Positions 4,210 to 47,863 of a stretch of DNA of 49,052 bases are shown here, piece by piece; position 1 is the first letter of the stretch; every line of letters starts with the position of its first letter. A model generated the notes under the pieces. It did no database searches. It saw nothing but the letters and a program-made list of their open reading frames with translations, and had not been told where the DNA came from. The stretch comes from Paracoccaceae bacterium (GTDB taxonomy: Bacteria; Pseudomonadota; Alphaproteobacteria; Rhodobacterales; Rhodobacteraceae). The DNA is taken from NCBI GenBank assembly GCA_009773055.1, contig WOUW01000022.1, forward strand, positions 1-49,052, written 5' to 3'. Position numbers and translations under genes: made by a program.

Positions 4210-4755
4210 TCAAATCTCGCTGCCCGGCTGCGCGGAATGGGTCAGGAGGCCCATCACATAAGTCGCAACCGACCGGAAGCAGACCAGCGTAAACCCTTGA
4301 TCTTGCTTCCATAACGCAGCGGGGACCTGGGCTGCGCGGCTGCGACGCATCTCTCCGGGTTCAAGCACTTCGAAATCGACCGGAAACAGCTTGCGCAGAA
4401 CATCCGCAGCCTTGTCGCCTTCGATCCGGAAGACGGCGCGGGCGTCAGAGACGTCGACGGCAAGATGATGCTCTCCCGACAGGGACTTGGCGAGTTTCGC
4501 CAATGCGTCGGCGACCCCGGCGTAGGGCAGGATCAGCAGATATTCGTCGGGGCTCATCCAGCCGCAGGCGCGGTCGCCGTTAACCTCGATGCGCCTTTGG
4601 GCCGGGGTCTTGGTGCCCGTGACCGACTTGATCGCCTTGTCCAGCGATTTCAGTCCTTTGGCACGCAGAGTTATCATTCCGATGGGGCCGATTTCACGGA
4701 TGGAGGCGAAGCCCTGGAAGCTTGCGCCGTTCAGCGCCGAGACTGGATCAGACAT
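4210..4755 (-). CDS. soxG: Sarcosine oxidase, gamma subunit
   Basis: A 181-residue subunit of heterotetrameric sarcosine oxidase, homologous to part of the GcvT fold (SPDEYLLILPY; VDVSDARAVFRIEGD; VLRKLFPVDF). The complex demethylates sarcosine to glycine, passing the one-carbon unit to tetrahydrofolate and electrons to oxygen. The start at 4755 overlaps the last eight bases of soxA (ATGTCTGA), indicating translational coupling; an upstream extension inside soxA is less likely. It is the last gene of the leftward sox operon. Confidence 0.92.
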   Translation of the reverse strand: MSDPVSALNGASFQGFASIREIGPIGMITLRAKGLKSLDKAIKSVTGTKTPAQRRIEVNGDRACGWMSPDEYLLILPYAGVADALAKLAKSLSGEHHLAVDVSDARAVFRIEGDKAADVLRKLFPVDFEVLEPGEMRRSRAAQVPAALWKQDQGFTLVCFRSVATYVMGLLTHSAQPGSEI

Positions 4756-7666
4756 TCTGCTTCTCCCCGTCCTTGTCATAGAAGACCATGTCTCGCACCC
4801 GCGCTTTCACTGTGCCGCCTGCAACCGTGTTGAACTCTACCACCTCGCCGTTCCGCGCAGGCCCTTGTTTCAAAAGGCCCATTGCGATGCCGCGCTTCAG
4901 GGTCGGTGAATAGTAGGTCGAGGTCACGCGGCCCTGGACGTTACGCTGGCCGTTGGCGTTTGTCCCATCGGCGATGATGTAAGCGCCGTCCGGGATAACC
5001 GACCCGTCGAGGGTTTCGAACCCGACCAGTTTCCAGCGGTCGGGGCTGGCAAGGTAAACGCGTTCTTGCCCGCGTTTGCCAAGGAAGTCGGCTTTCTTCT
5101 TGGAGATCGCCCAATCAAGGCCAAGGTCCTGCGGGATCACCGTGCCATCGGTTTCGTCCCCGATCATGATGAAGCCCTTTTCGGCGCGCATCACGTGCAG
5201 GCATTCCGTCCCGTAAGGCATTGCGCCCAAAGCCCTTCCAGCGTCGACACAGGCGGCCCAGAAGGCAGCGCCGTGGCTGGATGGGACTGCAATCTCGTAA
5301 GACAACTCACCCGAGAAGCTGATCCGGTAGACGCGCACCGGGAAGCCCGCCAAAGTGCCGTCCGCCCACTGCATAAACGGCAGCGTTTCCTTGGAAACGT
5401 CCATGCCACCAAGAACTTGCAGCAGTTTCCGCGCGTTCGGGCCGACAACTGCGACCTGGGCATACTGTTCAGTCACGTTGGCGGTGTAAACTTTCCAGTC
5501 CCACCATTCGCACTGCAGCCAGTCCTCCATCCAGGCGTGGATGCGGTCGGCGCCGCCCGAGGTGGTGTGGCAGAGCCAGGTGTCCTCGTCGATCCGGGCG
5601 ACGACGCCGTCGTCCGAGAGGAAGCCCTGTTCGTTGCACATGAGGCCATAGCGGCACTTGCCGACCGGCAATGTGGACATGACTCCGGTATAGAGCATGT
5701 CGAGGAACCGGCCCGCATCGGGGCCTTTGACGATGATCTTGCCAAGGGTGGAGGCGTCGAGAAGTCCGAGGTTGGTGCGGGTGTTCAGGACCTCGCGGTG
5801 GACGGCCTGTTCGTGCGTCTCCCCGGCCCGCGGGAAGCAGTAGGGGCGCCGCCAGAGGCCAACAGGTTCGAAGTAGGCTCCGGCCTTTTCATGCGCTTCG
5901 TGCATCGGCGTGCGGCGGAGGGGCTGGAAGATCTCGCCCCGGGATTCGCCAGCCAGCGCGCCAATAGTGACGGGCGTGTAGGGCGGACGGAATGTGGTGG
6001 TGCCGACCTGAGGAATCTCTTGACCCAAAGCATCAGCAAGCACGGCGAGTCCGTTGATGTTGCTAAGCTTTCCCTGATCGGTGGCCATGCCCAGCGTGGT
6101 GTAGCGCTTGGTATGTTCGACCGACTGATAGCCCTCACGCGCGGCAAGCTGCACGTCCGAGACCTTCACATCGTTCTGGTAGTCGAGCCACATCTTCGAG
6201 CGCAGCTGGATCGGCGCGCCCTGCGGCATGACCCAGACCGGGGGGATCGCGACTGAAGAACCCGTAAGGCTCAGGTCTCCGGCAGCAGCGCCGACGACTT
6301 CGACCATGGCCGAGCCGTCATGGTTCAGCGGTGGGCGGGACGGGTCGGGGATGAAAGCCGAGATGCCTTCGTCCCAGGTTAGCTTGCCGCCGCAATGGCT
6401 CCACAGGTGGACGACGGGGGACCAGCCGCCGGACATCGCGACGGCCTCGCAGGCGATTTCTTCCTGCACAGCCCCCTCGCCTGCCTGGGCGCAGATGGCG
6501 ACGCCGTTGACGCGCTTGCTACCCTTGACCTTGGCGATGGCCTTGCCGGTCAGGACGCGGATACCAGCGGCACGGGCAGCCTCGGGCAGAGCGCCGTCGG
6601 CGACCTCACGGGCATCAAGGATGGCCGGGACGTCGAGGCCCGCAGATTTCAGGGCAAGGGCGGTATGATAGGCAGAGTCGTTGTTGGTGACGATGACAGT
6701 GCGGTCGCCGGGCGAGACGGCGTAGTTTGTCACGTAGTCGCGGACCGCCGAGGCCAGCATCACGCCTGGGATGTCGTTCCCGGCAAAACTGAGCGGGCGT
6801 TCAATGGCGCCGGTGGCGGTGACGATCTTGCCCGCCCGGATGCGCCAGAGGCGGTGCTTGGGGCGGCCGTCGCCCGGCGTGTGGTCTGCGACGCGCTCGT
6901 CGGCCAGCACATAGCCGTGGTCATAGACCCCAAAGCCGCAGGTGCGGGTGCGGATCGTGACGTTGTCGCGGGCGGCGAGATCGGCTTCGATGGCGGTCAG
7001 CCAGGCATCGACCGGCTGGCCCTGGATTTCGGTGTCATCAACCGGGGCACGACCGCCAAGCGTTGGGGTCTGCTCCAGCAGGATCACGCGGCTTCCTGCG
7101 TCAGCGGCGGCTTTTGCCGCCAGAAGACCCGCGACACCTGCACCCACCACCAGCACGTCGCAGAAGGCGTAGACCTGTTCGTAGCGGTCGGCGTCGCCGG
7201 TGGTCGGTGCCTTCCCAAGCCCGGCCGAGCGGCGGATGATCGGTTCGAAGACATGCTTCCAGAACGGGCGCGGGTGGATGAAGGTCTTGTAGTAAAAGCC
7301 AGCGGGAAGAAAGCGGGCGGCGGTGTTGTTGACCACGCCTATGTCGAATTCGAGGCTTGGCCAGTGGTTCTGGCTGGTTGACTCCAGCCCGTCGAAAAGC
7401 TCGGTCGTCGTGGTGCGCTGGTTCGGCTCCAGTCGGGCGCCCGACCCGAGGTTCACCAGCGCGTTCGGCTCTTCGGGGCCGGACGCCACGATGCCGCGCG
7501 GCCGGTGATACTTGAAGCTGCGGCCGACAAGCATCTGGTCGTTCGCCAGAAGTCCGGCAGCAAGGGTATCACCCTCGTAACCCCGGAAACGTTTGCCATT
7601 GAAGGAAAATTCGACTGGTGCCGCACGGTTGATCAACCGGCCGCCCTTGGCGAGACGCGTGCTCAT
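4748..7666 (-). CDS. soxA: Sarcosine oxidase, alpha subunit
   Basis: A 972-residue subunit, the usual length for the heterotetrameric enzyme. The N-terminal region is the ferredoxin-like Fer2_4 domain (FNGKRFRGYEGDTLAAGLL). It is followed by an NAD-binding dinucleotide fold (LVVGAGVAGLLAAKAA, about residues 172-187). The C-terminal half is a GcvT-like aminomethyltransferase domain that binds folate (for example HVMRAEKGFIMIGDETDG). The subunit holds NAD and, with the beta subunit, channels the iminium/methylene intermediate to tetrahydrofolate. Its ATG overlaps the soxD stop by four bases (ATGA) and its own stop overlaps soxG. No frame damage is seen. Confidence 0.96.
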   Translation of the reverse strand: MSTRLAKGGRLINRAAPVEFSFNGKRFRGYEGDTLAAGLLANDQMLVGRSFKYHRPRGIVASGPEEPNALVNLGSGARLEPNQRTTTTELFDGLESTSQNHWPSLEFDIGVVNNTAARFLPAGFYYKTFIHPRPFWKHVFEPIIRRSAGLGKAPTTGDADRYEQVYAFCDVLVVGAGVAGLLAAKAAADAGSRVILLEQTPTLGGRAPVDDTEIQGQPVDAWLTAIEADLAARDNVTIRTRTCGFGVYDHGYVLADERVADHTPGDGRPKHRLWRIRAGKIVTATGAIERPLSFAGNDIPGVMLASAVRDYVTNYAVSPGDRTVIVTNNDSAYHTALALKSAGLDVPAILDAREVADGALPEAARAAGIRVLTGKAIAKVKGSKRVNGVAICAQAGEGAVQEEIACEAVAMSGGWSPVVHLWSHCGGKLTWDEGISAFIPDPSRPPLNHDGSAMVEVVGAAAGDLSLTGSSVAIPPVWVMPQGAPIQLRSKMWLDYQNDVKVSDVQLAAREGYQSVEHTKRYTTLGMATDQGKLSNINGLAVLADALGQEIPQVGTTTFRPPYTPVTIGALAGESRGEIFQPLRRTPMHEAHEKAGAYFEPVGLWRRPYCFPRAGETHEQAVHREVLNTRTNLGLLDASTLGKIIVKGPDAGRFLDMLYTGVMSTLPVGKCRYGLMCNEQGFLSDDGVVARIDEDTWLCHTTSGGADRIHAWMEDWLQCEWWDWKVYTANVTEQYAQVAVVGPNARKLLQVLGGMDVSKETLPFMQWADGTLAGFPVRVYRISFSGELSYEIAVPSSHGAAFWAACVDAGRALGAMPYGTECLHVMRAEKGFIMIGDETDGTVIPQDLGLDWAISKKKADFLGKRGQERVYLASPDRWKLVGFETLDGSVIPDGAYIIADGTNANGQRNVQGRVTSTYYSPTLKRGIAMGLLKQGPARNGEVVEFNTVAGGTVKARVRDMVFYDKDGEKQNV

Positions 7667-34641: not shown

Positions 34642-35409
34642 TCAGGTTCCCGGGAATTCTGGTTTGCGCTTGCCCTGAAAGGCGGTAACGCCCTCTTGCC
34701 GGTCGTCACTTGCTGCGATGGCGGCAGAGCCCAGCGCCTCGATCAGGGCTGCGGAGTCCTCGCCTTGTCCGGCATGGATCATCGCCTTGGTGATCTCGGT
34801 TGCGCGTGGCGACAGGGCGGCGGCCTTTTGGGCGATCTCCTGCGCTGTGGCGCGAACGTCCTCGGCTATTTCGGCGACGAAGCCGCAGGCGAGGAGCCTC
34901 TCGGCTCCGATCCGGCGGCCGAAGAGCGCCATTTCCTTCACCATCCCCTCGGGGATCAGCCGGACAAGGCGTTGACTGCCGGACCAGCCGGGGACGATCC
35001 CGACCCCTGCTTCGGGCAAGGCGATGGTGGCTTTGGGCGTGATCAGGCGGATGTCACAGGCAGCGGCCAATTCCAGTCCACCGCCGAAAGCGTGTCCGTT
35101 CAGTGCTGCGATAGAGGGTTTGGAAAGCCGCGCGAGGCGGTCAAAGATGCGGTGCCCGCCCCGAACCCAGTTCCGGGCGAATTCTGCCGGGGACAGCCCG
35201 CCCCAGGCGTTGATGTCTGCCCCCGAGCAGAAGGCACGGTCGCCTTCGCCGATCACGATCACCGCGCGGACTTCCGGGCGGGCCTCGATCACCTCGAGAT
35301 GGCTGGAAAGCTGCCCCAGCATCTCGACCGTGAAGCAGTTGAGCTTGGCCGCATTGTCAAGCCGCAGCTCGGCCACCGGACCGGCAATGTGCAGGCGGAC
35401 GCTGGTCAT
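34642..35409 (-). CDS. Enoyl-CoA hydratase/isomerase family protein
   Basis: A 255-residue crotonase-fold protein. The oxyanion-hole strands are AFCSGADINAWGG and NGHAFGGGLELAAACDIRL; the region IALPEAGVGIVPGWSGSQRL carries a glutamate (in LPEAG) at a usual catalytic position. It would hydrate or isomerise a CoA thioester. The ATG overlaps the CoA-transferase stop (ATGA), so the two probably act in sequence. Confidence 0.92.
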   Translation of the reverse strand: MTSVRLHIAGPVAELRLDNAAKLNCFTVEMLGQLSSHLEVIEARPEVRAVIVIGEGDRAFCSGADINAWGGLSPAEFARNWVRGGHRIFDRLARLSKPSIAALNGHAFGGGLELAAACDIRLITPKATIALPEAGVGIVPGWSGSQRLVRLIPEGMVKEMALFGRRIGAERLLACGFVAEIAEDVRATAQEIAQKAAALSPRATEITKAMIHAGQGEDSAALIEALGSAAIAASDDRQEGVTAFQGKRKPEFPGT

Positions 35410-36977
35410 GGCTGCCACCCCATCGGGCCGTGGGTCAGCAAGGACAGCGGCATGGTGGCGGCGGTATCAGCGATGGAAACGCGCCCCTGCGACGCGGCAA
35501 CGATGTCGCGGGCGGGGTCGATACCGGGCATGATCTCGGTTGCGACGAGGCCCGTGTCAGTCAGCCGGATCACGCAGCGTTCCGTAACATACAAGACCTC
35601 TTGCCCCTGCTGACGGGCGCGGCTGCCCGAGAAGGTGACGTGTTCGACCTTGTCGACCATCTTGCAAAACTTGCCCGGGGTGGTGACCTTCAGGCCCGTA
35701 GCAGTCAGTTCCACCCCTGCCCCGGCCTCGAACCAGCCGGAGAAGACGATCTTGCGGGCATGCGAGGTGATGTCGACAAAGCCGCCGCAGCCGGCTGTCA
35801 GATAGGGCTTCTTGCCAAGCTTCGAGACGTTGACGTTGCCTTCAACGTCAATCTCCAGGAACGACAGGAAGGACAGATCGAAACCGCCACCCTGGAAGTA
35901 GATGAACTGCTGCGGTGCCGGGACGAAGGCGTCGGCGTTCGAGGCGCAACCAAAGGCGAAGCCAGTCAGGGGCATACCGCCGACCGCGCCTTGTTCGATG
36001 GCCCAGGTGACGGCTTCGGGGTGGCCTTCTTCAAGCAGTATGCGGGGGACCATCGCGCTGATGCCGAAGCCGAGGTTGGCAGTCATGCCGTCCCGCAGTT
36101 CCAGCGCCGCGCGACGGGCGATGACCTTTTCGACTCCATGCTCGGCGAGGGTGAATGACGACCATGGCCGCATGATCTGGCCGGAAATGGCGGGATCATA
36201 AGGGGTTTCGCAGGTCTGCTTCTGGTCGGGGTCGATCACGATCAGGTCGACCAGATGACCCGGCACGCGCACGTCATGGGGGCGCAAAGACCCCTTGGCG
36301 GTCACCCGACCGACCTGCGCAATCACAAGACCGCGGTTGGTGCGGGTGGCAATCGCCTGTTCGAGGCCGCCCAGATAGGCGCCTTCGTGTTCGTAGGTCA
36401 GGTTGCCCCATTCATCCGCCGTGGTGGCGCGCAGGATGCAGACGTCGGGCTGAATGTTGGGGAAGTGGAGCCATGTTTCGCCGCCGAACTCGACACGCTT
36501 CACGATCGGCGCAGCGGCCCCGCGCGCGTTCATGGCACAACCCTCGCGGATCGGATCGGCGAAGGTGTCCATCCCGACCTTCGTCAGCACGCCCGGGCGG
36601 CGGGCGGCGGCGTCGCGGTGCATGTCGAACATGATACCCGAGGGCACGTTATAGGCGGCGACCCGGTCCTCGACGATCATCTTCCAGATCTCGGGCATCG
36701 GCAAATTGGACGAGCCCGAGGGGTAAGAGCCGGCCAGCACCCGCGCCAGAAGCCCGTCCTGCGCGATCCAGTCCATCCCTTTGACGCCATACATGTCGCC
36801 AGCCGCAATCGGGTGCAGCGTGGTGATGGCCTTTGGGTGACCCTCTGTCCGGAATCGGTTGCCCAGCGCTTTCAGGACCAGATCAGGACAGCCAAGCGCC
36901 GAGGAGGAGGAGACGGTGACGACCGCCCCGTCCTTGATACGGGCAACAGCTTCGGCGGCGGGAACAAGCTTGGTCAT
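35406..36977 (-). CDS. Fused alpha-beta acyl-CoA:acetate/3-ketoacid CoA-transferase
   Basis: A 523-residue family I CoA-transferase with both subunits in one chain, as in E. coli YdiF and mitochondrial SCOT. The first half carries GVKGMDWIAQDGL and GSYPSGSSN. The second half has the catalytic glutamate E328 in WAIEQGAVGG. It transfers CoA between carboxylates. Together with the hydratase it indicates that a carboxylic acid is activated in this route. Its start overlaps the stop of the Gfo/Idh gene (ATGA). Confidence 0.92.
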   Translation of the reverse strand: MTKLVPAAEAVARIKDGAVVTVSSSSALGCPDLVLKALGNRFRTEGHPKAITTLHPIAAGDMYGVKGMDWIAQDGLLARVLAGSYPSGSSNLPMPEIWKMIVEDRVAAYNVPSGIMFDMHRDAAARRPGVLTKVGMDTFADPIREGCAMNARGAAAPIVKRVEFGGETWLHFPNIQPDVCILRATTADEWGNLTYEHEGAYLGGLEQAIATRTNRGLVIAQVGRVTAKGSLRPHDVRVPGHLVDLIVIDPDQKQTCETPYDPAISGQIMRPWSSFTLAEHGVEKVIARRAALELRDGMTANLGFGISAMVPRILLEEGHPEAVTWAIEQGAVGGMPLTGFAFGCASNADAFVPAPQQFIYFQGGGFDLSFLSFLEIDVEGNVNVSKLGKKPYLTAGCGGFVDITSHARKIVFSGWFEAGAGVELTATGLKVTTPGKFCKMVDKVEHVTFSGSRARQQGQEVLYVTERCVIRLTDTGLVATEIMPGIDPARDIVAASQGRVSIADTAATMPLSLLTHGPMGWQP

Positions 36978-38158: not shown

Positions 38159-38638
38159 TCAACGCTTTGTCCGGGTGCTGGCCGCCGTCGACCCGTTTCT
38201 GAGGTCCAGCTTCTGCAGGTCTTCCAGCAGATCGAGAAGCGCCTCAAGCCGCTTGCGGCCGAACTCGGCCTCGATCCGGCCCAGAATGGCCGTGCTGTGC
38301 GCGGCATGGGCGTTGACCAGCGCAAGCCCTGCCGGGGTGATCGCAACGATGGTCTTCCGGCGATCCTCGGGCGGTGTCATGCGCGAGATCAGCCCTTCGT
38401 CCACCATCGGCCCGACCATTCGCGTCAGGCTGGAGAGGAGAAGCACCGCCTCGGCAGCGACCTGGCTGAGTTCAAGCGGCCCGCGTTCCTGCAGGACGCG
38501 CAAGACGCGCCATTTCTGTTCGTTGACACCCGACGTCGCCAGCATGTCGCGGAACGGCCCCATCACCGTTTCCCGCGCCCGCAAGAGCGCGATCGGCAAG
38601 GAGCGACGGGTTTGGCGAAAGCTGGGCGTGTCGGTCAT
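38159..38638 (-). CDS. hpaR: MarR-family repressor of homoprotocatechuate catabolism
   Basis: A 159-residue winged-helix regulator matching HpaR: SLPIALLRARETVMGPFRDM near the N-terminus, NEQKWRVLRVLQERGPLELS and the recognition region LLLSSLTRMVGPMVDEGLI, with the wing PPEDRRKTIVAIT. HpaR represses the hpa meta-cleavage genes until homoprotocatechuate or its precursor binds. It is divergent from hpaF with a perfect palindrome between them. No good ribosome binding site is visible before the ATG. Confidence 0.88.
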   Translation of the reverse strand: MTDTPSFRQTRRSLPIALLRARETVMGPFRDMLATSGVNEQKWRVLRVLQERGPLELSQVAAEAVLLLSSLTRMVGPMVDEGLISRMTPPEDRRKTIVAITPAGLALVNAHAAHSTAILGRIEAEFGRKRLEALLDLLEDLQKLDLRNGSTAASTRTKR

Positions 38639-38685
38639 GATCCGGTTATGGCGCGTTTTCGGGGCGGCCTCAATCCACCGAAAAT

Positions 38686-38703
38686 TACTTGCCAAAGCAA
38701 GTA
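38686..38703. promoter_or_regulatory. Perfect palindrome, candidate HpaR operator
   Basis: TACTTGC-CAAA-GCAAGTA, with 7-bp perfect arms, stands 47 bp upstream of hpaR and 31 bp upstream of hpaF. The TTGC-N4-GCAA core is the shape of many MarR-family operators. It is well placed to control both divergent transcripts. Confidence 0.65.
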
Positions 38704-38734
38704 TCATATCGCTGACTGCTCCGGGGAGGCCGCC

Positions 38735-39127
38735 ATGCCACACATACAGATCGACTATTCGGCGAACCTTGAACATCGCCTTGATGTCGCAGGCCTGTGC
38801 CGGGTCCTGCGCGATGCGGCGGTGGCCACGGGAATCCTGCCCTTGGCGGGTATCCGGGTGCGGGCGATCAGAGCGGACCATGTGGTGATCGCGGACGGAA
38901 GTCCCGACCACGCCTATCTGGATATCTCGGTCCGCTTGCGTGGCGGGCGCACGGACGCAGCCAAAGCCGAGGCGACCGCGCTGATCTTCGCCGAAGCCGA
39001 GGCCTTTTGCGCTGAGGTCATGGCCACCTCTTCGTTCATGCTGTCGATGGAAATGCGTGACATCGACCCCGGTCTGTCGCCCAAGGCCAGCTCGATCCGC
39101 AAATACCTGCCGGGAGGCACCGAATGA
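38735..39127 (+). CDS. hpaF: 5-carboxymethyl-2-hydroxymuconate delta-isomerase
   Basis: A 130-residue member of the tautomerase superfamily acting after the dehydrogenase in the homoprotocatechuate pathway. The mature protein starts MPHIQIDYSANLEHRLD, giving the catalytic Pro-1 after methionine removal; other conserved parts are YLDISVRLRGGRTD and FMLSMEMRDIDP. GGGGAGG precedes the ATG. Its stop overlaps the hpaE start. Confidence 0.93.
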   Translation: MPHIQIDYSANLEHRLDVAGLCRVLRDAAVATGILPLAGIRVRAIRADHVVIADGSPDHAYLDISVRLRGGRTDAAKAEATALIFAEAEAFCAEVMATSSFMLSMEMRDIDPGLSPKASSIRKYLPGGTE

Positions 39128-40626
39128 CCCTTCAGACCCATCTGGAAAAGCTGGACCGCCACCTCGCGCGGTTTCGGGAGGGCGGCATCCTGAACCTGAT
39201 CGACGGCATGGATGTGCCGGCGGCCAGTTGCTTTCAGACACACTCGCCGGTGGACGAAACCCTGATCGCCGAAGTCGTGCGGGGGACAGCTGCCGACATA
39301 GACCGCGCCGCCAAGGCGGCAAAGGCGGCGTTTCCGGCCTGGGCGGCGATGCCGGGCGATAAGCGCAAGGCGATCCTGCACCGGATCGCCGACGGGATTG
39401 AAGCGCGGGCTGAGGAAATCGCCCTTTGCGAATGCTGGGACACCGGACAGGCTTGGCGCTTCATGTCGAAGGCCGCCCTGCGTGGCGCCGAGAATTTCCG
39501 ATTCTTCGCAGACCTTTCGCCCGGTGCGCGGGATGGCAAGTCGCTGCCGACCACAGACCACCTGAACGTCACCAGCCGAAAACCCATCGGCCCGGTGGGC
39601 GTCATCACCCCGTGGAACACGCCTTTCATGCTGTCGACCTGGAAGATCGCCCCGGCCCTTGCTGCAGGCTGCACGGTCGTTCACAAACCTGCCGAGCTCT
39701 CGCCCCTGACGGCACGTATTCTGGCAGAGATCTGCCATGAGGCGGGCCTGCCCCCAGGCGTCCTGAACCTCGTCAACGGCTTCGGAGAAGAGGCAGGCAA
39801 GGCTCTGACCGAACACCCCGACATCAAGGCCATCGCCTTCGTCGGCGAAAGCCGCACCGGTTCGATGATCATGAAGCAAGGCGCGGATACCCTGAAGCGC
39901 GTGCACTTCGAACTTGGCGGCAAGAACCCCGTCGTTGTCTTCGACGACGCCGACCTCGACCGCGCGCTGGATGCAGTGATCTTCATGATCTACTCGCTGA
40001 ACGGCGAGCGGTGCACCTCCTCCTCGCGCCTTCTGGTGCAAGACACCGTCGCTGACGAATTCCATGTCCGGCTGGTCGATCGGATCAACCGGATCAAGGT
40101 CGGCCACCCGCTTGACCCGGCGACCGAGATCGGGCCGCTGATCCACAAGACCCATCTCGACAAGGTCACGTCCTATGTCGGTATCGGCCAAGCCGACGGT
40201 GCGACCCTTGCCGCCGGTGGCGCACGCCTGGGCGAGACGGGATGGTTCTTCCGCCCCACCCTTTTCACCGACGCCACGCCGAATATGCGGATCGCGCAGG
40301 AAGAGGTGTTCGGCCCCTTCCTCACCTCTCTGACCTTCAACGACGAGGCGGAGGCGCTGGAGATCGCCAACTCCACCGCCTACGGATTGACCGGCTATCT
40401 CTGGACCCAGGACTTGACCCGCGCGCTGCGCTTTTCCGATGCGCTGGAGGCCGGAATGATCTGGGTGAACAGCGAGAACGTCCGCCACCTGCCCACGCCT
40501 TTCGGCGGAGTGAAGGCCAGCGGCGTCGGTCGCGATGGCGGGGACTGGTCGTTCGAGTTCTACATGGAACAGAAGAATACCGCCTTCGCCCTTGGTCACC
40601 ACAAGATCCAACGCCTGGGAGCCTGA
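39124..40626 (+). CDS. hpaE: 5-carboxymethyl-2-hydroxymuconate semialdehyde dehydrogenase
   Basis: A 500-residue NAD-dependent aldehyde dehydrogenase. The catalytic glutamate is in HFELGGKNPVVVFDDADLD and cysteine in NGERCTSSSRLLVQD; VITPWNTPFMLSTWKIAPAL is the form typical of HpaE. It oxidises the ring-cleavage semialdehyde to 5-carboxymethyl-2-hydroxymuconate. Coupled to hpaF by ATGA; hpaD begins one base after its stop. Confidence 0.95.
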   Translation: MTLQTHLEKLDRHLARFREGGILNLIDGMDVPAASCFQTHSPVDETLIAEVVRGTAADIDRAAKAAKAAFPAWAAMPGDKRKAILHRIADGIEARAEEIALCECWDTGQAWRFMSKAALRGAENFRFFADLSPGARDGKSLPTTDHLNVTSRKPIGPVGVITPWNTPFMLSTWKIAPALAAGCTVVHKPAELSPLTARILAEICHEAGLPPGVLNLVNGFGEEAGKALTEHPDIKAIAFVGESRTGSMIMKQGADTLKRVHFELGGKNPVVVFDDADLDRALDAVIFMIYSLNGERCTSSSRLLVQDTVADEFHVRLVDRINRIKVGHPLDPATEIGPLIHKTHLDKVTSYVGIGQADGATLAAGGARLGETGWFFRPTLFTDATPNMRIAQEEVFGPFLTSLTFNDEAEALEIANSTAYGLTGYLWTQDLTRALRFSDALEAGMIWVNSENVRHLPTPFGGVKASGVGRDGGDWSFEFYMEQKNTAFALGHHKIQRLGA

Positions 40627-40627
40627 C

Positions 40628-41608
40628 ATGCCCGTCCCCGTCCCGAACCTTTACCCACCCTTCAACACCGTCCGCCTAAGCCATGTCGAATTCGGCGTGA
40701 CCGACCTCGCGAAATCCCGCGCCTTCTACGTCGACACCCTTGGCCTGCAGGTGAGTGAAGAGGACAGCTCGACGATCTATCTGCGAGCTATGGAGGAACG
40801 CGGCCACCACTGCATTATCCTGAAGCAGGCCGCCATGGCCGAAGCCTGCTTTCTGGGCTTCAAGGTCTGGGACGAAGACAACCTCGACCGCGCAGCCGCC
40901 CACTTCGCGGGCAAGAGCCTGCCTGTGGAATGGGTTGAAAGCCCCCACATCACCCGCGCCTTCCGCACCCGCGACCCGCAGGGCATCCCGCTGGAGTTCC
41001 ACGCCCGGATGGACCGCCTGCCCCCGATCCATCAACAGTACAAGCTCTACAACGGCGTGAAACCGCTGCGGATCGACCATTTCAACTGCTTCTCCCCCGA
41101 CGTCGACGCCTCTGTTGCCTTCTGGAACGACATCGGCTTTCGCGTCACGGAATACACGGAGGAAGCCGACACGGGCCGCCTCTGGGCCGCCTGGACCCAC
41201 CGCAAGGGGGGCGTTCATGACCTGGCGTTCACTAACGGGTTTGGGCCGCGTTTGCACCACACCGCCTTCTGGGTGCCAACACCGCTGAACATCATCGACC
41301 TGCTGGACCTCATGTCCACCACCGGCTGGCTGGCGAACATCGAGCGTGGCCCGGGCCGTCACGGCATCTCGAACGCCTTTTTCCTTTATGTCCGCGACCC
41401 GGATGGCCACCGCATCGAGATCTACTGTTCCGACTACCAGACGGTCGACCCCGACCACGAGCCGATCAAGTGGGATCTGAAGGACCCGCAACGCCAGACT
41501 CTTTGGGGCGCCCCTGCCCCGCGCAGCTGGTTCGAGGAAGGCAGCCTTTTCGCCGACACCACCGCGGTCCCAGCGACGCTCAAAGCCAGCCCGATCATCG
41601 CGCCATGA
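40628..41608 (+). CDS. hpaD: 3,4-dihydroxyphenylacetate 2,3-dioxygenase (type I extradiol)
   Basis: A 326-residue ring-cleaving enzyme of the vicinal-oxygen-chelate fold, like Brevibacterium and Arthrobacter homoprotocatechuate dioxygenases and unlike the LigB-type HpaD of E. coli. Metal ligands by alignment are H151 (RIDHFN), H211 (RLHHTAFW) and E264 (HRIEIYCSDY). H197 (GGVHDLAF) matches the acid-base histidine of the Brevibacterium enzyme. The N-terminal VOC domain is degenerate, as usual. The metal (Fe or Mn) cannot be told from sequence. Confidence 0.93.
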   Translation: MPVPVPNLYPPFNTVRLSHVEFGVTDLAKSRAFYVDTLGLQVSEEDSSTIYLRAMEERGHHCIILKQAAMAEACFLGFKVWDEDNLDRAAAHFAGKSLPVEWVESPHITRAFRTRDPQGIPLEFHARMDRLPPIHQQYKLYNGVKPLRIDHFNCFSPDVDASVAFWNDIGFRVTEYTEEADTGRLWAAWTHRKGGVHDLAFTNGFGPRLHHTAFWVPTPLNIIDLLDLMSTTGWLANIERGPGRHGISNAFFLYVRDPDGHRIEIYCSDYQTVDPDHEPIKWDLKDPQRQTLWGAPAPRSWFEEGSLFADTTAVPATLKASPIIAP

Positions 41609-42459
41609 TGCTGGTCACCTTCAGTTCAAACGGCCGCCAGCACTGGGGCACCACTGCGCCGGGGGGAGTGCTTGCCCTGTCGGATGCCTTCCCGCAGTGG
41701 CAAACCCTGCGGAATGTGATCGAGGCCGGGGCAATCCCGCAGGTTCTGGCGGAAGCGACTGGCCGTCCCGCCAGTCATCATGAAGGGTTGTTCACATACG
41801 ACCCGCCGGTCCCTGACCCGGAGAAGATCATCTGCGTCGGCGTCAACTTTCCCGACCGCAATGCGGAATACAAGGACGGGCAAGAGGCGCCGCCCAACAT
41901 GTCGCTCTTCATCCGCTTTCCGCGCAGTTTTACCGGCCATGGGGCTCCACTGATTCGTCCCCCAGAAAGCGAACAGCTTGATTATGAAGGCGAAATTGCC
42001 ATTGTCATCGGTAAGGCCGGCCGCCGTATCCCCGAGGCCGATGCCCTTTCCCACATCGCTGCCCTCACCCTGTGCAACGAGGGCACGATCCGCGACTGGG
42101 TACGGCATGCCAAATTCAATGTCACGCAAGGCAAGAACTGGGATCGCTCTGGCGCACTGGGGCCGGGGCTCACGCCGTTCACCGACCCCGCCCAGATTGC
42201 CGACATCGCACTCACCACCCGCGTCAACGGCGACATCCGCCAGCAGGACCGCACCGGTCGAATGCTTTTCCCGATCGCCCACCAGATCGCCTACATCTCG
42301 ACCTTCACCACGCTGGTCGCCGGCGACATCATCGTCACCGGCACCCCCACCGGGGCGGGCGCAAGGTTCGATCCGCCGATCTGGCTGAAGCCCGGCGACG
42401 TGATTGAGGTCGAAGCAGATGGCCTGCCCAGTCTGCGCAACACCGTGGCAGACGAATGA
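41605..42459 (+). CDS. hpaG: Fumarylacetoacetate hydrolase family; HpaG-type decarboxylase/isomerase
   Basis: A 284-residue single-domain FAH-fold protein. Metal-binding parts are DYEGEIAIVIGKAGRRI and LCNEGTIRDWVRHAKFN; GDIIVTGTPTGAG closes the active site. By position it should decarboxylate 5-oxo-pent-3-ene-1,2,5-tricarboxylate and/or isomerise its product, the HpaG step. E. coli HpaG has two such domains; only one copy is present here. ATG overlaps the hpaD stop; a second ATG follows immediately at 41608. Confidence 0.83.
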   Translation: MMLVTFSSNGRQHWGTTAPGGVLALSDAFPQWQTLRNVIEAGAIPQVLAEATGRPASHHEGLFTYDPPVPDPEKIICVGVNFPDRNAEYKDGQEAPPNMSLFIRFPRSFTGHGAPLIRPPESEQLDYEGEIAIVIGKAGRRIPEADALSHIAALTLCNEGTIRDWVRHAKFNVTQGKNWDRSGALGPGLTPFTDPAQIADIALTTRVNGDIRQQDRTGRMLFPIAHQIAYISTFTTLVAGDIIVTGTPTGAGARFDPPIWLKPGDVIEVEADGLPSLRNTVADE

Positions 42460-43256
42460 CCCCAACGGAAATCGCCAGCGCCGCCCGGGCACTTCTCACT
42501 GCCGAAGACACACACCAGCAGGTCGCTCTCCTCTCCCTCGCCCACCCCGGCATGACGCTGGACGACGCCTATGCCGTGCAAGCGGAACTTATCGCGATGA
42601 AACTGGCCCGGGGCCGCAAGCGCATCGGCTGGAAGATCGGCCTCACTTCCCGCGCCATGCAGGAACAGCTCAAGATCGACACGCCGGACTCGGGCGTCCT
42701 TCTCGACGACATGGTATTTCCGGATGGCTCGTCCGTTCCGAAAAACCATTTCATCCAGCCGAGAGTCGAAGCGGAGATTGCCTTCCTCATGGCCCGCGAT
42801 CTTTCTGGCACGGACGTCACCCGCAAGGATGTCATCGCCGCCACCGGCCATGTTGCGCCGTCGCTGGAGATCCTCGACACCCGCATCCTTCGCACCGATC
42901 CCGCCACCGGCAAGGCGCGGATCATCACCGACACCGTCAGCGACAACGCGGCCAATGCGGGAATTGTTCTTGGCGCGCAGCGCCACGCTTTAGACACCCA
43001 GGACCTCCGCTGGGTCGGAGCCATCGTCAAGCGCAACGGTGTGGTAGAGGAAACCGGCCTTGGCGCGGGTGTCCTTGACGACCCGGTCACCGGAATACTC
43101 TGGCTTGTCCAGCGCCTTGCCGCCTATGGTCAGGGCCTGAAGGCGGGGGATATCGTTCTCTCCGGCAGTTTTGTGCGGGCCATCGAAGCCCCGCCCGGCA
43201 GCCGGTTCGAGGCCGATTTCGGCGCTTTCGGATCAGTCTCCATCAACTTCGGATAG
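42456..43256 (+). CDS. hpaH: 2-oxo-hept-3-ene-1,7-dioate hydratase
   Basis: A 266-residue hydratase of the MhpD/HpaH family, Mg-dependent. Typical stretches are KRIGWKIGLTSRAMQEQL, PRVEAEIAFLMARDL (metal-binding glutamates), TDTVSDNAANAGIVLG and GDIVLSGSFVRAIEAPPG. It adds water to give 4-hydroxy-2-oxoheptanedioate. Coupled to hpaG (ATGA). Confidence 0.94.
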   Translation: MTPTEIASAARALLTAEDTHQQVALLSLAHPGMTLDDAYAVQAELIAMKLARGRKRIGWKIGLTSRAMQEQLKIDTPDSGVLLDDMVFPDGSSVPKNHFIQPRVEAEIAFLMARDLSGTDVTRKDVIAATGHVAPSLEILDTRILRTDPATGKARIITDTVSDNAANAGIVLGAQRHALDTQDLRWVGAIVKRNGVVEETGLGAGVLDDPVTGILWLVQRLAAYGQGLKAGDIVLSGSFVRAIEAPPGSRFEADFGAFGSVSINFG

Positions 43257-43259
43257 CCC

Positions 43260-44030
43260 ATGCCCGCCCCTCTGAACCGTCTGAAACATCGCCTCGCCGC
43301 CGGGGAAACCGTCTATGGTTGCTGGCTTGGAATGGCCGACCCCTACGCTGCCGAAATGGCTGCAACCTGCGGCTTCGACTGGCTTTTGGTCGACGGCGAG
43401 CATGCGCCGAACGACCTGCGCTCGACAATGGCACAATTGGCAGTCATCGAGCCTTCGCCCAGCCAGCCGGTGGTGCGCCTGCGTGACGACGACCCTGCCA
43501 GGATCAAGCAGGCGCTGGACGCGGGCGCGCAAAGCCTGCTGATCCCGATGATCGAGACCGCCGACCAGGCCCGCCGCGCGCTGGCCGCCACCCGCTACCC
43601 GCCCGAGGGTATCCGGGGGGTCGGCTCCTCCCTCGCCCGCGCCTCGCGCTTTTCGGCGATCCCGGACTATCTGAAAACTGCGAACGACCAGATTTGCCTG
43701 ATCCTGCAGGTTGAAAGCAGGGCGGGATTGGCGGCGCTGAATGATATCCTCGCCATCCCCGGCATCGACTGCGTTTTCATCGGCCCTTCGGACCTTGCGG
43801 CCGACATGGGTCACCTTGGAAACGCCAGCCACCCGGAGGTCCGTGCCGCCGTGATGGACGCGCTGGCCCGGATCGCAGCCTCTGGCAAAGCCGCTGGAAT
43901 GCTGTCGACCGAAGACGCGTTCATTGCCGATTGCCTGCAGGCCGGCGCGCGATTTGTTGGCGTTGGCATCGACGTTCTCGCCTATGTCGGCGCGCTGCGG
44001 GCGCGGGCAAGGCAGTTCATCCCGGGCTGA
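43260..44030 (+). CDS. hpaI: 4-hydroxy-2-oxoheptanedioate aldolase
   Basis: A 256-residue class II pyruvate aldolase. Conserved parts are DWLLVDGEHAPNDL (catalytic His), LLIPMIETADQAR (metal-binding Glu), GVGSSLARASRF and CVFIGPSDLAADMG (metal-binding Asp). It releases pyruvate and succinate semialdehyde. Starts three bases after hpaH and ends four bases before the convergent PLP-cyclase gene. Confidence 0.94.
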   Translation: MPAPLNRLKHRLAAGETVYGCWLGMADPYAAEMAATCGFDWLLVDGEHAPNDLRSTMAQLAVIEPSPSQPVVRLRDDDPARIKQALDAGAQSLLIPMIETADQARRALAATRYPPEGIRGVGSSLARASRFSAIPDYLKTANDQICLILQVESRAGLAALNDILAIPGIDCVFIGPSDLAADMGHLGNASHPEVRAAVMDALARIAASGKAAGMLSTEDAFIADCLQAGARFVGVGIDVLAYVGALRARARQFIPG

Positions 44031-44034
44031 CGGC

Positions 44035-46008
44035 TCAGTCCAAAACCAACGCCAGCGCCCGGATGGGTGAACCCGTCCCGTCCTTGATCTTCAACGGCGT
44101 CACGATCAGCACTGCGCCTTTCGGCGGCAGTTGGTCGAGATTGCAGAGGCTTGCGAGCCCAAAACAGTTGTCCCGGTGCAGGAAGTTGTGCGCCGGGAAA
44201 GGCGGGCTGAACTTGCCCGCCATCCCCGCGTCCGTGCCGATGCACTGCGTGCCCCAGCCGACGATGCCTTTGCCCAAGAGGTAGTCGATGCAGTCCGTGG
44301 ACGGACCGGGGGAATGTGAGCCGTCCTCGTAAGGATCGGGGTCCTCGTTCAGGAACAACTCCTCGTCATGCGACCGCTTGTCCCAGTCGGTGCGCATCAG
44401 CACCCATTCGCCCGGACCGATTGGCCCGTGCTTCGCCTCCCAGGCCTTCACATGCGCGGCGGTCAGAAGGAAATCAGGGTCGGCGGCGGCCTCGGCCGAG
44501 CAGTCGATGACGTTCGCGGGCGCGATCAGGCGCTGGACCGACAAGGTGTCGGTAAAGCCGTCGGGGTGATCCTTGCCCGACAGCCAATGGTGCGGCGCGT
44601 CGAAATGGGTGCCGGAGTGTTCGCCGAGTTCGAGCCAGTTCCAGGCCCAGAACGGGCCGTCGGTGTCGTATTCGCTGATCCTGTGGATCGCGACCTTGGG
44701 CGTGTTCCGCGCGAGATCTTCGGGAAGCCGGAGGATCGGCGTCTCGGGCCCCAGCTGGGCTGTCAGGTCCACGACCCTAACTGCTCCGCCCGCCAGCCCG
44801 GAAGCCAGCGCTGCCAGCACTTCTGCCGCGCCTTTGGCCTTCTCCCCCTGCCCCGCAAAGCGACAGCGGCGGCGGGTCATCACCTCCTCCATCATGTCGA
44901 AGACAGCATCAACTGCACGTTCTTCCGTGACGAAACCCGGCGACATCCGCAGGATCGGGCCGCGGAAATCGACGGAATAACCTTCGACCCCCAGCGCGCC
45001 GACGCAGGCTGCCGCTTCGGCCTTGTCCGGCATCCGGATCATCACCGCGCCGCCCCGCCTGTCGGGGTCGCGCGGTGAATGGAGCGGCAGGTTCAGCCGG
45101 TCGGCGCGGGTGATCACCCGGTCCACCAAACGGCGGTTGTGAGCGGCGACGTCGTTCAGATCCTGTTTCGAAAACCACTCCAGAGCCGGAAGCGAAGCGA
45201 TAGCCGCGACCGACCCCGGCGTACCGGTGTCGAAGCGGCGGACGTCGGGGGCGTACTCGAACTTGTCGAGATCCCAGGAGAACGGGTTGTTCTGGCTGAA
45301 CCAGCCCCGGCCTTCCGGCATCAGAGTCGGGATCAGGTCCTTGTCGGCATAAAGGATGCCTGCCCCCGGCGTCCCGCAGAGCCATTTGAGGCTGGTCGAG
45401 ACGACAAAGTCGACCCTCGGATTCATCGCGTCGAACGGCATCAGGCCCGCGCCCTGCGTGATGTCGACAACCATCAGAGTGCCCATTGTGCGGCCGTGGG
45501 CGACGAGCGCCGGGTAGTCCATCTTGGAGGACCCGATCGAGGTGACCCAGGTGATGAGGGCGAGGCCTACGTCAGGGGTCCAATGGGCGAGGTAATCCTC
45601 GGTCTCCACCCAGGCGCGGCCTTCGGAAAGGGGGACGGTGGTCAGGGTGAAGCCCATCTTCGGGGCGAGACCTGCGAGGAGAAAATGGAGCGAGGGGAAG
45701 CAGTCGGCGGCGGCGAGGACTTTTTTGCCGCGCAGGCTTCCTTCCGGCAGGGCGCGGAGGATTTTCTGCAGGCCTTCAGTCACGTTGTCGACGGTGGTGA
45801 GGCTGCCCTTCGGGACATTGATCAACCGACGCCAGCGGTCGATGAAGTCCTGCCGCTTGCGCAGGACGTAGCCCCACTGCTTGTCGTTCGGGGCAGCCCA
45901 GACCTCGGAGAACTCGGCCATCGCGCGGGACAGGTCTTCTTCCTTGCCGGGGTAGATGCCGATGGAATGGTAGAGGAAGTAGCCCCCCTCGGTCGTGTTG
46001 CGGGTCAT
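44035..46008 (-). CDS. Fusion: kynureninase-like PLP domain + KynB-like cyclase/formamidase domain
   Basis: A 657-residue two-domain protein. Residues 1-385 form a class V aminotransferase-fold PLP domain: N75/T77 region for phosphate, D182 (VVDITQGAG) contacting the pyridine ring, and Schiff-base lysine K208 in STSLKWLCGTPGAG, the form seen in kynureninase-like proteins. After a linker (386-410), residues 411-657 are a cyclase-family metal hydrolase with EHSGTHFDAPHHW (463-475), the metal site of bacterial kynurenine formamidase (KynB), and GWGTQCIGTDAG. In the kynurenine route these would be consecutive activities, formamidase then kynureninase. The real substrate may differ, since neighbours are a P450, a ferredoxin and a GS-like ligase. 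The frame is continuous, without a stop or shift. The preferred ATG is at 46008. Confidence 0.82.
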   Translation of the reverse strand: MTRNTTEGGYFLYHSIGIYPGKEEDLSRAMAEFSEVWAAPNDKQWGYVLRKRQDFIDRWRRLINVPKGSLTTVDNVTEGLQKILRALPEGSLRGKKVLAAADCFPSLHFLLAGLAPKMGFTLTTVPLSEGRAWVETEDYLAHWTPDVGLALITWVTSIGSSKMDYPALVAHGRTMGTLMVVDITQGAGLMPFDAMNPRVDFVVSTSLKWLCGTPGAGILYADKDLIPTLMPEGRGWFSQNNPFSWDLDKFEYAPDVRRFDTGTPGSVAAIASLPALEWFSKQDLNDVAAHNRRLVDRVITRADRLNLPLHSPRDPDRRGGAVMIRMPDKAEAAACVGALGVEGYSVDFRGPILRMSPGFVTEERAVDAVFDMMEEVMTRRRCRFAGQGEKAKGAAEVLAALASGLAGGAVRVVDLTAQLGPETPILRLPEDLARNTPKVAIHRISEYDTDGPFWAWNWLELGEHSGTHFDAPHHWLSGKDHPDGFTDTLSVQRLIAPANVIDCSAEAAADPDFLLTAAHVKAWEAKHGPIGPGEWVLMRTDWDKRSHDEELFLNEDPDPYEDGSHSPGPSTDCIDYLLGKGIVGWGTQCIGTDAGMAGKFSPPFPAHNFLHRDNCFGLASLCNLDQLPPKGAVLIVTPLKIKDGTGSPIRALALVLD

Positions 46009-46246: not shown

Positions 46247-46561
46247 TCAGGCCTCTGGAACAGAAACCACGATCCCGTCCAGTGCCGCGCTCATCCTGAC
46301 CTGACAGGACAGCCGCGAGGTTGGCTGACGGTCGGCCTCGGTGATGTCGAGCATGTCTTCCTCGAACGGTCCCGGTTCCCCTGCCCTGTCCGCCCAAGTG
46401 GGGTGGACAACCACATGGCAGGTGGCGCAGGACATCGAGCCACCGCATTCGCCGATGATGCCCGGGACGCCGTGCCTGGTGGCGGCTTCCATCAGGCTTT
46501 GGCCTTCGGGCACGTCGAGGGTGATCTCGCGGCCATCGGCCAGGTTCCAGGTGGCTTTCAT
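46247..46561 (-). CDS. [2Fe-2S] ferredoxin, adrenodoxin/putidaredoxin type
   Basis: A 104-residue electron carrier. Cluster ligands are C39, C45, C48 (GECGGSMSCATCHVVV) and C86 (SRLSCQV), the spacing of vertebrate-type ferredoxins serving P450s. It lies between the ligase gene and the PLP-cyclase gene and is the likely donor for the P450 encoded upstream in the same direction. A matching ferredoxin reductase is not seen in the window. Confidence 0.94.
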   Translation of the reverse strand: MKATWNLADGREITLDVPEGQSLMEAATRHGVPGIIGECGGSMSCATCHVVVHPTWADRAGEPGPFEEDMLDITEADRQPTSRLSCQVRMSAALDGIVVSVPEA

Positions 46562-46570
46562 GGCTAACCC

Positions 46571-47863
46571 TCAGACATACCAGATATAATAGTCGCGCAA
46601 TGCCGCGCCTTCGAGGCCTTGCGTCTTTGTGACCTCGATCCGTTTCATGAAGAGGTGATGTTCCACCAGCTCTGGGCCGAGGGCTGCGGCCAGCGCGGTG
46701 TCAGCCTCCAGGTCGTCCATCGCTTCGGCCAGTGAGGCCGCGACGCCGTAGCCTGCATCGGTGCGGTCGAAGCCGTCGCCGGCCTCGGGCGCGGGGAGGG
46801 TGTAGGCGTTTTCGACGCCCAGAAGCCCGGCCTGCAGGAGGGCGGCGAGGGCGTTGTAGGGGTTGCAACTGGCGTCGGCCATGCGGTGTTCGAGGCGGGT
46901 CTTCGGGCCGCCCTCTTCGGACACACGCACGGTCACGCCGCGATGGTCGCCGCCCCAGTTGCACCAGTAGCCCGACATCGAGGCGGGTTGCAGGCGCAGG
47001 TAGCTGCCGACCGTGGGGGCGAGGAGACCGGCAAGGCCCTTGTGGTGGTGCAGCCAGCCCGCGACCACGCCCTTTGCAAGGTCGTTCATGTGGTCGGGGC
47101 CGCCCTTTGGCCCGGTTGCCAGCGCGTTCTTGCCTGCCTTGTCGGCGAAGGAAAGGTTGAAATGGAGGCCAGAGCCGCCCTTTTCCAGGATCGGTTTTGG
47201 CAGGAAGGTCAACAGGATACCGTGTTCCAGCGCCACTTCGCGGGCCATCTGGCGGAAGAGGACCATTTCGTCCACCGCCTTGACCGCATCATCATAGGCG
47301 AGAGTGAATTCGTACTGCGGGGTGTCGTATTCGGCTGTGATGAGTTCAAGGCGGAAGCCTGCCTCCTCGGCACGTTGCCAGATCGCATCGGTGAAGCCTG
47401 CTGGGTCGGCGAAGGGGCCGGTGCCGTAGACGATGCCGCCGGGGGCGTGCATCGGGGCAAGGCTATCATCCTCGTTGATCTCGAAGGCGAAGGCTTCCAG
47501 TTCGATCCCGACTTTGGCGGTCAGGCCTTTGCCGGTCCAGGCCGCGACGGCGCGTTTCAGGGCCGAGCGGGGGCAGAGCGGGATGCGCGCGCCGTCACTG
47601 TCGTAAAGATCTCCGGTGACGACCTTGGTGTCGGGCTCCCACCCGTCGCGGATTTCCTCGGCGACCCAGCGCAGTTCCATGTCCGGGATGCCCTCGCGGC
47701 ACTTGGTGTGGGGGGCGTCAAGGATCAGGTCCTTGTCCCAGTGGACCGAGAAGGTCGGACGCGCCATGCGCGTGCCGTCGGATTTCAGCTTGGACGCGGG
47801 CAGGTATTTGCCGCGCATCAGGCTGAGATGATCGCAGAACATCGCGCGCAGGCGGTCGGCCAT
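46571..47863 (-). CDS. Glutamine synthetase family protein (possible gamma-glutamyl-amide ligase)
   Basis: A 430-residue protein of the glutamine synthetase fold. Recognisable parts are KVGIELEAFAFEI (metal-binding glutamates), GGSGLHFNLSF, RLQPASMSGYWCNWGGDHRG and TRLEHRMADASCNPYNALAAL. It is shorter and more divergent than housekeeping GlnA and lacks its adenylylation loop sequence, so it is more like GlnT/PuuA-type enzymes that glutamylate amines. The context with a P450 and ferredoxin suggests a catabolic amine, as in known gamma-glutamylation pathways; substrate unknown. Confidence 0.85.
   Translation of the reverse strand: MADRLRAMFCDHLSLMRGKYLPASKLKSDGTRMARPTFSVHWDKDLILDAPHTKCREGIPDMELRWVAEEIRDGWEPDTKVVTGDLYDSDGARIPLCPRSALKRAVAAWTGKGLTAKVGIELEAFAFEINEDDSLAPMHAPGGIVYGTGPFADPAGFTDAIWQRAEEAGFRLELITAEYDTPQYEFTLAYDDAVKAVDEMVLFRQMAREVALEHGILLTFLPKPILEKGGSGLHFNLSFADKAGKNALATGPKGGPDHMNDLAKGVVAGWLHHHKGLAGLLAPTVGSYLRLQPASMSGYWCNWGGDHRGVTVRVSEEGGPKTRLEHRMADASCNPYNALAALLQAGLLGVENAYTLPAPEAGDGFDRTDAGYGVAASLAEAMDDLEADTALAAALGPELVEHHLFMKRIEVTKTQGLEGAALRDYYIWYV

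Follow-up and report, generated by a model that had tools for sequence, protein, structure and literature searches.

The window analysed here is a stretch of 49,052 nucleotides, positions 1 to 49,052 of contig WOUW01000022.1 (assembly GCA_009773055.1), from a Paracoccaceae bacterium of the order Rhodobacterales. Its minus strand carries, at positions 44035–46008, one open reading frame of 657 codons that begins with an ATG at 46008 and is free of stops until its end. Translation of the frame and an alignment of its relatives describe a fused two-domain protein of 657 amino acids, in which Pfam placed Aminotran_5 at residues 60–325 (E-value 2.6e-20) and Cyclase at residues 413–594 (E-value 2.6e-34). 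The N-terminal domain (residues 1–385, 44854–46008) is a predicted pyridoxal 5'-phosphate (PLP) enzyme of fold type I, and the C-terminal domain (residues 394–657 plus the stop codon, 44035–44829) is a predicted isatin hydrolase. According to the alignment, the domains meet at residues 386–393 (44830–44853), and a variable linker continues to about residue 405. An earlier note, made from the DNA letters, had described a continuous 657-residue frame combining kynureninase-like and KynB-like halves. The note named no strand; the minus-strand translation bore out the frame, and D182, K208 and HSGTHFDAPHHW (464–475) were found at the positions given there. Its claim of a single polypeptide whose two domains each keep their site, for the cofactor in one and the metal in the other, was likewise upheld by Pfam, residue alignment and motifs.

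The two halves of the fused protein

Sequence and fold comparisons both place the C-terminal half among the isatin hydrolases. Its closest solved relatives were 4j0n (E-value 5.6e-129) and then the IHA entries 5nmp, 5nnb and 5nna (1e-77 to 1.3e-76). Foldseek ranked 4m8d and 4j0n at the top, with 72% identity, for a low-confidence structure model (pLDDT 64, built from 32 close sequences) that was used for fold matching only and not for active-site geometry. The accessible text of a 2018 paper lists as marks of isatin hydrolases HxG[T/A]HxDxPxH, a WxW/FxW pocket and GLQC/GLAS, the KynB counterpart of the last being I(L/I)E (PMC6117287). The domain carries the aromatic pocket motif as WAWNW (454–458, 44635–44649) and the metal-binding motif HxGTHxDxPxH within HSGTHFDAPHHW (44584–44619), where residues 464–474 read HSGTHFDAPHH. 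Residues H464, H468, D470 and H474 were invariant in a 32-sequence alignment. GLAS, the signature of isatin hydrolase B, lies at residues 617–620 (44149–44160), where KynB has I(L/I)E. Five fused relatives that were inspected also had the metal, pocket and GLAS motifs, with F replacing the first W in three. The arylformamidase model TIGR03035 gave the domain 25.9 bits against a cut-off of 223. Identity with KynB was rejected on this score, the isatin hydrolase matches and GLAS, so that the earlier label "KynB-like" held for the superfamily and not for KynB itself.

The N-terminal half is, as far as sequence comparison can tell, a sister family of kynureninase and not a kynureninase by the curated model. 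A single-sequence search returned kynureninase 1qz9 (1e-15) before desulfurases and C-S lyases. A 23-member profile was built from seven fused proteins and 16 of 23 stand-alone copies of the domain, omitting L089, L090, L098, L099, L103 and L110 because the match ran over a stop, and L091 by choice. Four kynureninase chains led its matches (1.1e-29 to 3.2e-22; 1qz9 at 1.1e-29, 3e9k at 1.3e-24), followed by the C-S lyase C-DES (2.8e-18) and cysteine desulfurases (4.7e-16). The domain stayed under every curated cut-off listed, with 43.3 against 246.4 bits for kynureninase (TIGR01814) and 56.5 against 475 bits for SufS (TIGR01979).

Residues were compared, in Pseudomonas kynureninase numbering taken from the alignment with 1qz9, among 22 family members (seven fused, 15 stand-alone) and six true kynureninases from genomes that also carry the PLP domain. 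F129, D201, K227, W256, T282, R369 and R375 were kept in all 22 members. K208 of the fused protein (45385–45387), the PLP Schiff-base lysine, aligns with K227; D182 (45463–45465) aligns with D201 and is presumably the partner of the PLP ring nitrogen; R354 (44947–44949) aligns with R375 and is taken here to bind the alpha-carboxylate. Every one of the 22 members replaced D132 (mostly by Leu, with Met, Ile, Val and Asn also found), H204 (by Gln), Y226 (by Leu) and H259 (by Gln), and all six true kynureninases kept the four residues. The roles of individual kynureninase residues, these four included, are ones that we assume. In a tree of 28 rows the PLP family was split from the true kynureninases with support of 100/100, and the fused proteins formed one clade (100/99). 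Because of this residue pattern and the tree split, we read the domain as a sister family with shared cofactor and amino-acid handling and altered aromatic handling. On the model score and the four replaced residues, identity as a true kynureninase was rejected. The "kynureninase-like" reading therefore survived for the PLP lysine, the aspartate and the carboxylate arginine, and failed for kynureninase itself (43 against 246 bits, four substitutions).

True kynureninase was found above its cut-off in 38 of the 42 genome handles that carry the PLP domain, and TDO in 39 of them, in canonical form in 37, the hit in G205 and G303 being the TDO-like gene described below; by coordinates G098 and G723 are the same genome, so that these are at most 41 distinct genomes. 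In the window's own assembly, which is 59% complete, neither canonical TDO nor kynureninase was found over its cut-off.

Distribution and gene context

Relatives were sought with short peptide patterns in a set of genomes in which each species was represented once, and the best 80 of 214 stretches corresponded to 78 distinct loci. The same architecture, which the earlier note had proposed to look for across genomes, turned up at 46 loci of other assemblies (L003–L048), mostly from Rhodobacteraceae, with L048 from a Hoeflea bin. As for a possible stop between the domains in relatives, also raised there, 44 of the 46 fused loci were open along the whole match. Of these, 42 were full length, and L045 and L048 were cut by a contig end; L040 and L043, the latter containing 117 N, were not open. 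Since 46 other loci carry the fusion, 44 of them open, it is neither a chance product nor a join error. Mean column identity was 82% in an alignment of the window protein with 31 of the 46 fused loci. A class-level search with the whole protein (E-value 1e-60) matched 13 of 385 genomes. Among these, G000 and G002, from the window's own family, were the only genomes with a match to the PLP domain, and the remaining matches covered just the isatin hydrolase.

The two families also occurred together as separate genes. Of 341 genomes from the order, 28 had the PLP domain (seven fused, 21 stand-alone), 50 had isatin hydrolase at a threshold of E 1e-40, and 26 had both (Fisher 6e-23). When the seven fused genomes were left out, isatin hydrolase was present in 19 of the 21 genomes with the PLP domain and in 24 of the 313 others (Fisher 3e-17); the Fisher values are only a guide because related genomes are not independent. 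The stand-alone PLP copies were 45–58% identical to the domain of the window, and in 12 of the 21 genomes an isatin hydrolase gene lay on the same contig, 5.8–17.1 kb away. Of the 21 handles for genomes with the fusion, 18 contained at least one further isatin hydrolase match. The genome of the window is one with a separate isatin hydrolase, near which lies an IorA-cluster gene (L002). CrtO/CrtI-like FAD oxidoreductases (cluster c2) occurred, often twice, in 26 of 32 stand-alone isatin hydrolase loci (L049–L080, L117). IorA-like genes and a peptide-type ABC importer were also seen at such loci, and a luciferase-type monooxygenase (c7) at 15 of them.

Neighbours were counted with tblastn, using a neighbour panel, within 9 kb of the PLP domain at the 46 fused loci and at 22 stand-alone stretches (L111–L132). 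IorA/IorB genes were detected at seven fused loci, and IorA or IorB at three stand-alone stretches, in two of which IorB lay 37 and 73 bp from the PLP gene. A set consisting of an acyl-homoserine-lactone (AHL) lactonase-like protein of AiiA/AttM type, an SDR and a VioD/GntC-like PLP enzyme was found at seven fused loci (no SDR was seen on the 4.5-kb contig of L027) and at eight stand-alone stretches. M20 peptidases were present at two fused loci and two stand-alone stretches, 15 bp away in one of the latter, and a peptide-type importer at eight stand-alone stretches. The fused loci further contained a leucine-type binding protein (seven loci), a histone-deacetylase-fold hydrolase (five), a StyA-like monooxygenase (two), a CocE-type hydrolase with a peptide importer (two), a BKACE protein (two) and a Rieske oxygenase (one, L026); another Rieske protein was spotted by eye in L019. 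Partners were thus common to fused and stand-alone copies, though not at every locus. The VioD/GntC-like enzyme, from a family that cyclises hydroxylated arginines, was located at L035 5931–7052 and L123 13017, near fused and stand-alone copies alike. The histone-deacetylase-fold hydrolase lies upstream of the fusion at L007 (8628–9731), where a class III-type aminotransferase adjoins it, and also at L006, L013, L039 and L044.

Two genomes of the 341 (G205 and G303), both with the PLP domain, held a gene of the TDO superfamily that scored 124 bits against the canonical TDO cut-off of 391. It lies 100 bp and 2.4 kb from the stand-alone PLP gene in its two genomes (L130 10214–11647; L132 3455–4198), has a core of 248 amino acids and shows a loop reading SLKGR where TDO has GTGGS. 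In the genera of G205 and G303 no copies beyond these were found (one of 16 genomes and one of one, respectively). In one of the two genomes a flavin monooxygenase of HsaA/XiaF/Rv3094c type lies 139 bp from the PLP gene.

In the window itself, Pfam and curated models placed a 2Fe-2S ferredoxin (Fer2; 46247–46561) and a glutamine-synthetase-like ligase (46571–47863) next to the fusion, and Pfam a cytochrome P450 (47946–49052) whose 5' end runs past the contig end. All three lie on the minus strand, which confirmed the neighbours named in the earlier note, and its view that the route is unlike the standard kynurenine route was also supported. The P450, ligase and ferredoxin genes recurred 1.0–3.2 kb upstream in seven of the 46 fused loci besides the window, and were missing from the other 39. 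Since the window copy of the P450 is cut, its homologue in L044 was searched, and its closest solved relatives were of CYP125/CYP124 types. The ligase was most like ordinary glutamine synthetases, yet under the curated cut-offs. This block may act on another compound.

On the plus strand, positions 38159–44030 carry a meta-cleavage cluster (HpaE-D-G-H-I and a MarR gene) that looks like standard homoprotocatechuate degradation; HpaE, HpaD and HpaH passed the NCBIfam cut-offs and HpaI did not. HpaI and the fusion stand tail to tail, with 4 bp between the end of HpaI and the stop codon of the fusion. This cluster was considered as the lower half of the pathway and rejected as a constant partner: besides the window, the full set stood beside the fusion in only four of 46 loci (L007, L013, L039, L044), with a partial set or none elsewhere. 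HpaI was present without HpaH, G and D in L003–L006, L011 and L012. Farther away, the window encodes a sarcosine-oxidase-alpha-like protein with Fer2_4, SO_alpha_A3 and GCV_T domains (4748–7666) and a reverse-strand frame of 523 amino acids (35406–36977), which we take to be an acyl-CoA transferase and which recurred near 10 fused loci as cluster c13.

A proposed route through isatin and its alternatives

We propose, with belief and doubt in equal measure, that the fused protein carries out two steps of a catabolic route of tryptophan type via isatin, in which the PLP domain would cut dioxindolyl-L-alanine and the second domain would open isatin. Isatinate fits as the product: the domain joined to the PLP enzyme is predicted to hydrolyse isatin, and some loci continue with a gene for an alpha-keto-acid oxidoreductase. 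A kynureninase-type enzyme that forms isatin would need an amino acid with oxygen on C3 of the indole, and would have to cut this C3 from C-beta. The simplest such amino acid would be dioxindolyl-L-alanine, a doubly oxidised tryptophan, and its retro-aldol cleavage by the PLP domain would give isatin and L-alanine without water. Kynureninase hydrolyses a gamma-ketone at the corresponding bond, and a switch from hydrolysis to retro-aldol cleavage would be in keeping with the loss of Asp132 and Tyr226. The C-terminal domain would next hydrolyse isatin to isatinate (2-aminophenylglyoxylate), a step well supported by homology, and a 2-oxoacid:ferredoxin oxidoreductase of IorAB type, suggested by the neighbours, would convert isatinate to 2-aminobenzoyl-CoA. 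Upstream, the substrate may be supplied by oxygenases that differ between lineages, or be imported already oxidised as a peptide or lactone. The flavin monooxygenase could add the C3 hydroxyl, and the homoserine-lactone-type lactonase fits the gamma-lactone that a gamma-hydroxy amino acid could form (an amino-gamma-lactone); oxidation of tryptophan gives such a lactone, a spirolactone. The fusion would pass reactive isatin directly to the enzyme that opens it, and channelling between the domains is plausible. The N-formyl intermediate suggested in the earlier note was not supported; isatin fits better as the compound passed between domains.

In its widest form, held with a confidence that falls somewhat short of even, the proposal is of a second aerobic bacterial route for tryptophan, or for peptide-derived oxidised tryptophan, that would bypass kynurenine: from tryptophan to oxindolylalanine and dioxindolylalanine, then to isatin and alanine, isatinate and 2-aminobenzoyl-CoA. 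Some of the Rhodobacterales would have the two central enzymes fused, which would keep isatin from being set free. All parts come from known superfamilies. The open-access literature searched yielded no recognised description of the fusion, of the sister family of PLP enzymes or of the route that they imply. If the proposal is true, it would name the side-chain-cleaving enzyme of a tryptophan route for which no description was found, and explain a family that falls between kynureninase and cysteine desulfurase in the curated models. Amino acids of the 3-hydroxy-oxindole kind could then be made or broken with a naturally occurring PLP enzyme. Oxidised tryptophan is a common form of protein damage, and the route would show how some bacteria recycle it and where isatin-forming metabolism occurs.

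Several observations weigh against the isatin route. Two genomes with a stand-alone PLP gene, G116 and G205, had no isatin hydrolase at E 1e-40, the second being also one of the two with the TDO-like gene, and isatin hydrolase occurred without the PLP domain in 24 of the 341 genomes. No screened partner was found within 9 kb in 12 of the 46 fused loci, nor any panel partner in six of the 22 stand-alone stretches (L112–L116, L118), some contigs being short. Among the NCBIfam models, SufS scored slightly higher than kynureninase on the N-terminal domain (56.5 and 43.3 bits). An indole oxygenase is unsupported at the window because the P450 is closest to CYP125/CYP124 types. The TDO-like protein scored 85 bits against ordinary TDO and 44 bits against MarE, and its SLKGR is one position off GTGGS in ungapped register. 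In addition, neither canonical TDO nor kynureninase over cut-off was found in G205 and G303, so that the TDO-like and PLP genes there could do kynurenine-type work.

This last point bears on the earlier note's view that the protein is a kynureninase–formamidase fusion whose substrate is N-formylkynurenine or a related amide. Tryptophan degradation draws on the superfamilies of both halves, no solved structures are closer to the N-terminal profile than kynureninases, and G205 and G303 have the TDO-like gene beside the PLP gene. Nevertheless, we consider this view improbable, given scores far under the kynureninase and arylformamidase cut-offs, the replacement of Asp132, His204, Tyr226 and His259, GLAS in place of the KynB motif, and the separate true kynureninase that 38 of the 42 handles have. 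The PLP domain could instead be a C-S lyase in a route of mercapturate-like kind, where its substrate would be an oxidised indole conjugated to cysteine and supplied by M20 peptidases and peptide importers. C-DES was the next profile match after the kynureninases, its fold similarity to the low-confidence model was slightly higher than that of kynureninase (TMt 0.76 and 0.73), a desulfurase has a Gln at the position aligned with Q185, and M20 peptidase genes lie 15–48 bp from some copies. Kynureninases nevertheless led the profile matches, the domain shares W256 and T282 with kynureninase, and no glutathione transferase was recognised among the neighbour proteins read or scanned, which were not all of the neighbours; a C-S lyase thus has a small probability in our view.

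The chemistry could also be as proposed and the substrate another one. The isatin would then be freed from a ring-substituted or N-modified (for example, hydroxylated or halogenated) relative, and the P450, ferredoxin and glutamine-synthetase-like genes would prepare the compound in the Tabrizicola lineage. We regard this as unlikely though worth keeping in view: that gene block recurs upstream in seven fused loci, context differs strongly between lineages and the stand-alone copies are merely 45–58% identical to the window domain, but the block is missing from 39 fused loci, and the compared catalytic positions are common to all 22 members (with variation at the Asp132 site), which suggests one shared reaction. 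Finally, the fusion might simply co-express two catabolic enzymes with no intermediate passed between them. The further isatin hydrolase matches in 18 of 21 fused-genome handles suggest that this enzyme is not needed only as a fusion partner, and the separate copy in the window's genome has its own IorA-cluster gene nearby. Since the linkage of the two families extends to lineages in which their genes stand alone, and the fused proteins form one clade, we judge mere co-expression very improbable.

Comparison with known systems

The C-terminal domain most resembles isatin hydrolase B of Labrenzia aggregata (4j0n, 4m8d), with which it shares 72% identity and the same metal, WxWxW and GLAS motifs; the crystallised chain differs in having 263 residues and no PLP domain. 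With kynureninase (Pseudomonas fluorescens 1qz9, TIGR01814) the N-terminal domain has in common the fold, the PLP lysine and aspartate, the carboxylate arginine and the W256 and T282 positions, and the cut would be expected between C-beta and C-gamma in both. It differs at Asp132, His204, Tyr226 and His259 and in its score below the cut-off, and true kynureninases coexist with it in most genomes examined.

For the preceding oxidation, the nearest comparison is MarE, a member of the TDO superfamily with an SLGGR loop that, according to the portion of the source available, makes 2-oxindoles (PMC11904535). The SLKGR loop of the TDO-like protein encoded beside two stand-alone PLP genes resembles it, but by score that protein is nearer to ordinary TDO, and its gene is not in the window. 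For the carbon–carbon bond itself, excerpts of one study describe the PLP aminotransferases Aro8 and TyrB joining L-alanine to isatin to give a gamma-hydroxy amino acid of m/z 237, and UstD and KynU with the same kind of nucleophilic intermediate (PMC13397446). The likeness is that PLP enzymes join an alanine-derived nucleophile to carbonyls, isatin among them for Aro8 and TyrB, to form gamma-hydroxy amino acids. Those reactions are run as biocatalytic synthesis, whereas the native reaction proposed for the fusion runs the other way, in catabolism.

The closest parallel in pathway logic is the iad auxin system of Variovorax and Bradyrhizobium. The sections consulted of one report state that iad loci degrade indole-3-acetic acid via isatin, and a legend there lists iorB/iorA among the auxin-locus genes (PMC9613470). 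As far as the available part of another goes, the route runs from dioxindole-3-acetate through side-chain removal to isatin, isatinic acid and anthranilate, with IadI, annotated as kynurenine formamidase, at a late step (PMC12633357). On these partial accounts, both routes would bring the indole to the dioxindole level, take off the side chain and continue through isatin to isatinic acid. They would part at the removal step: in the iad route the CoA-dependent IadFG, with IadH, presumably takes off an acetate side chain, whereas in the route proposed here a PLP enzyme would release an alanine side chain in one step.

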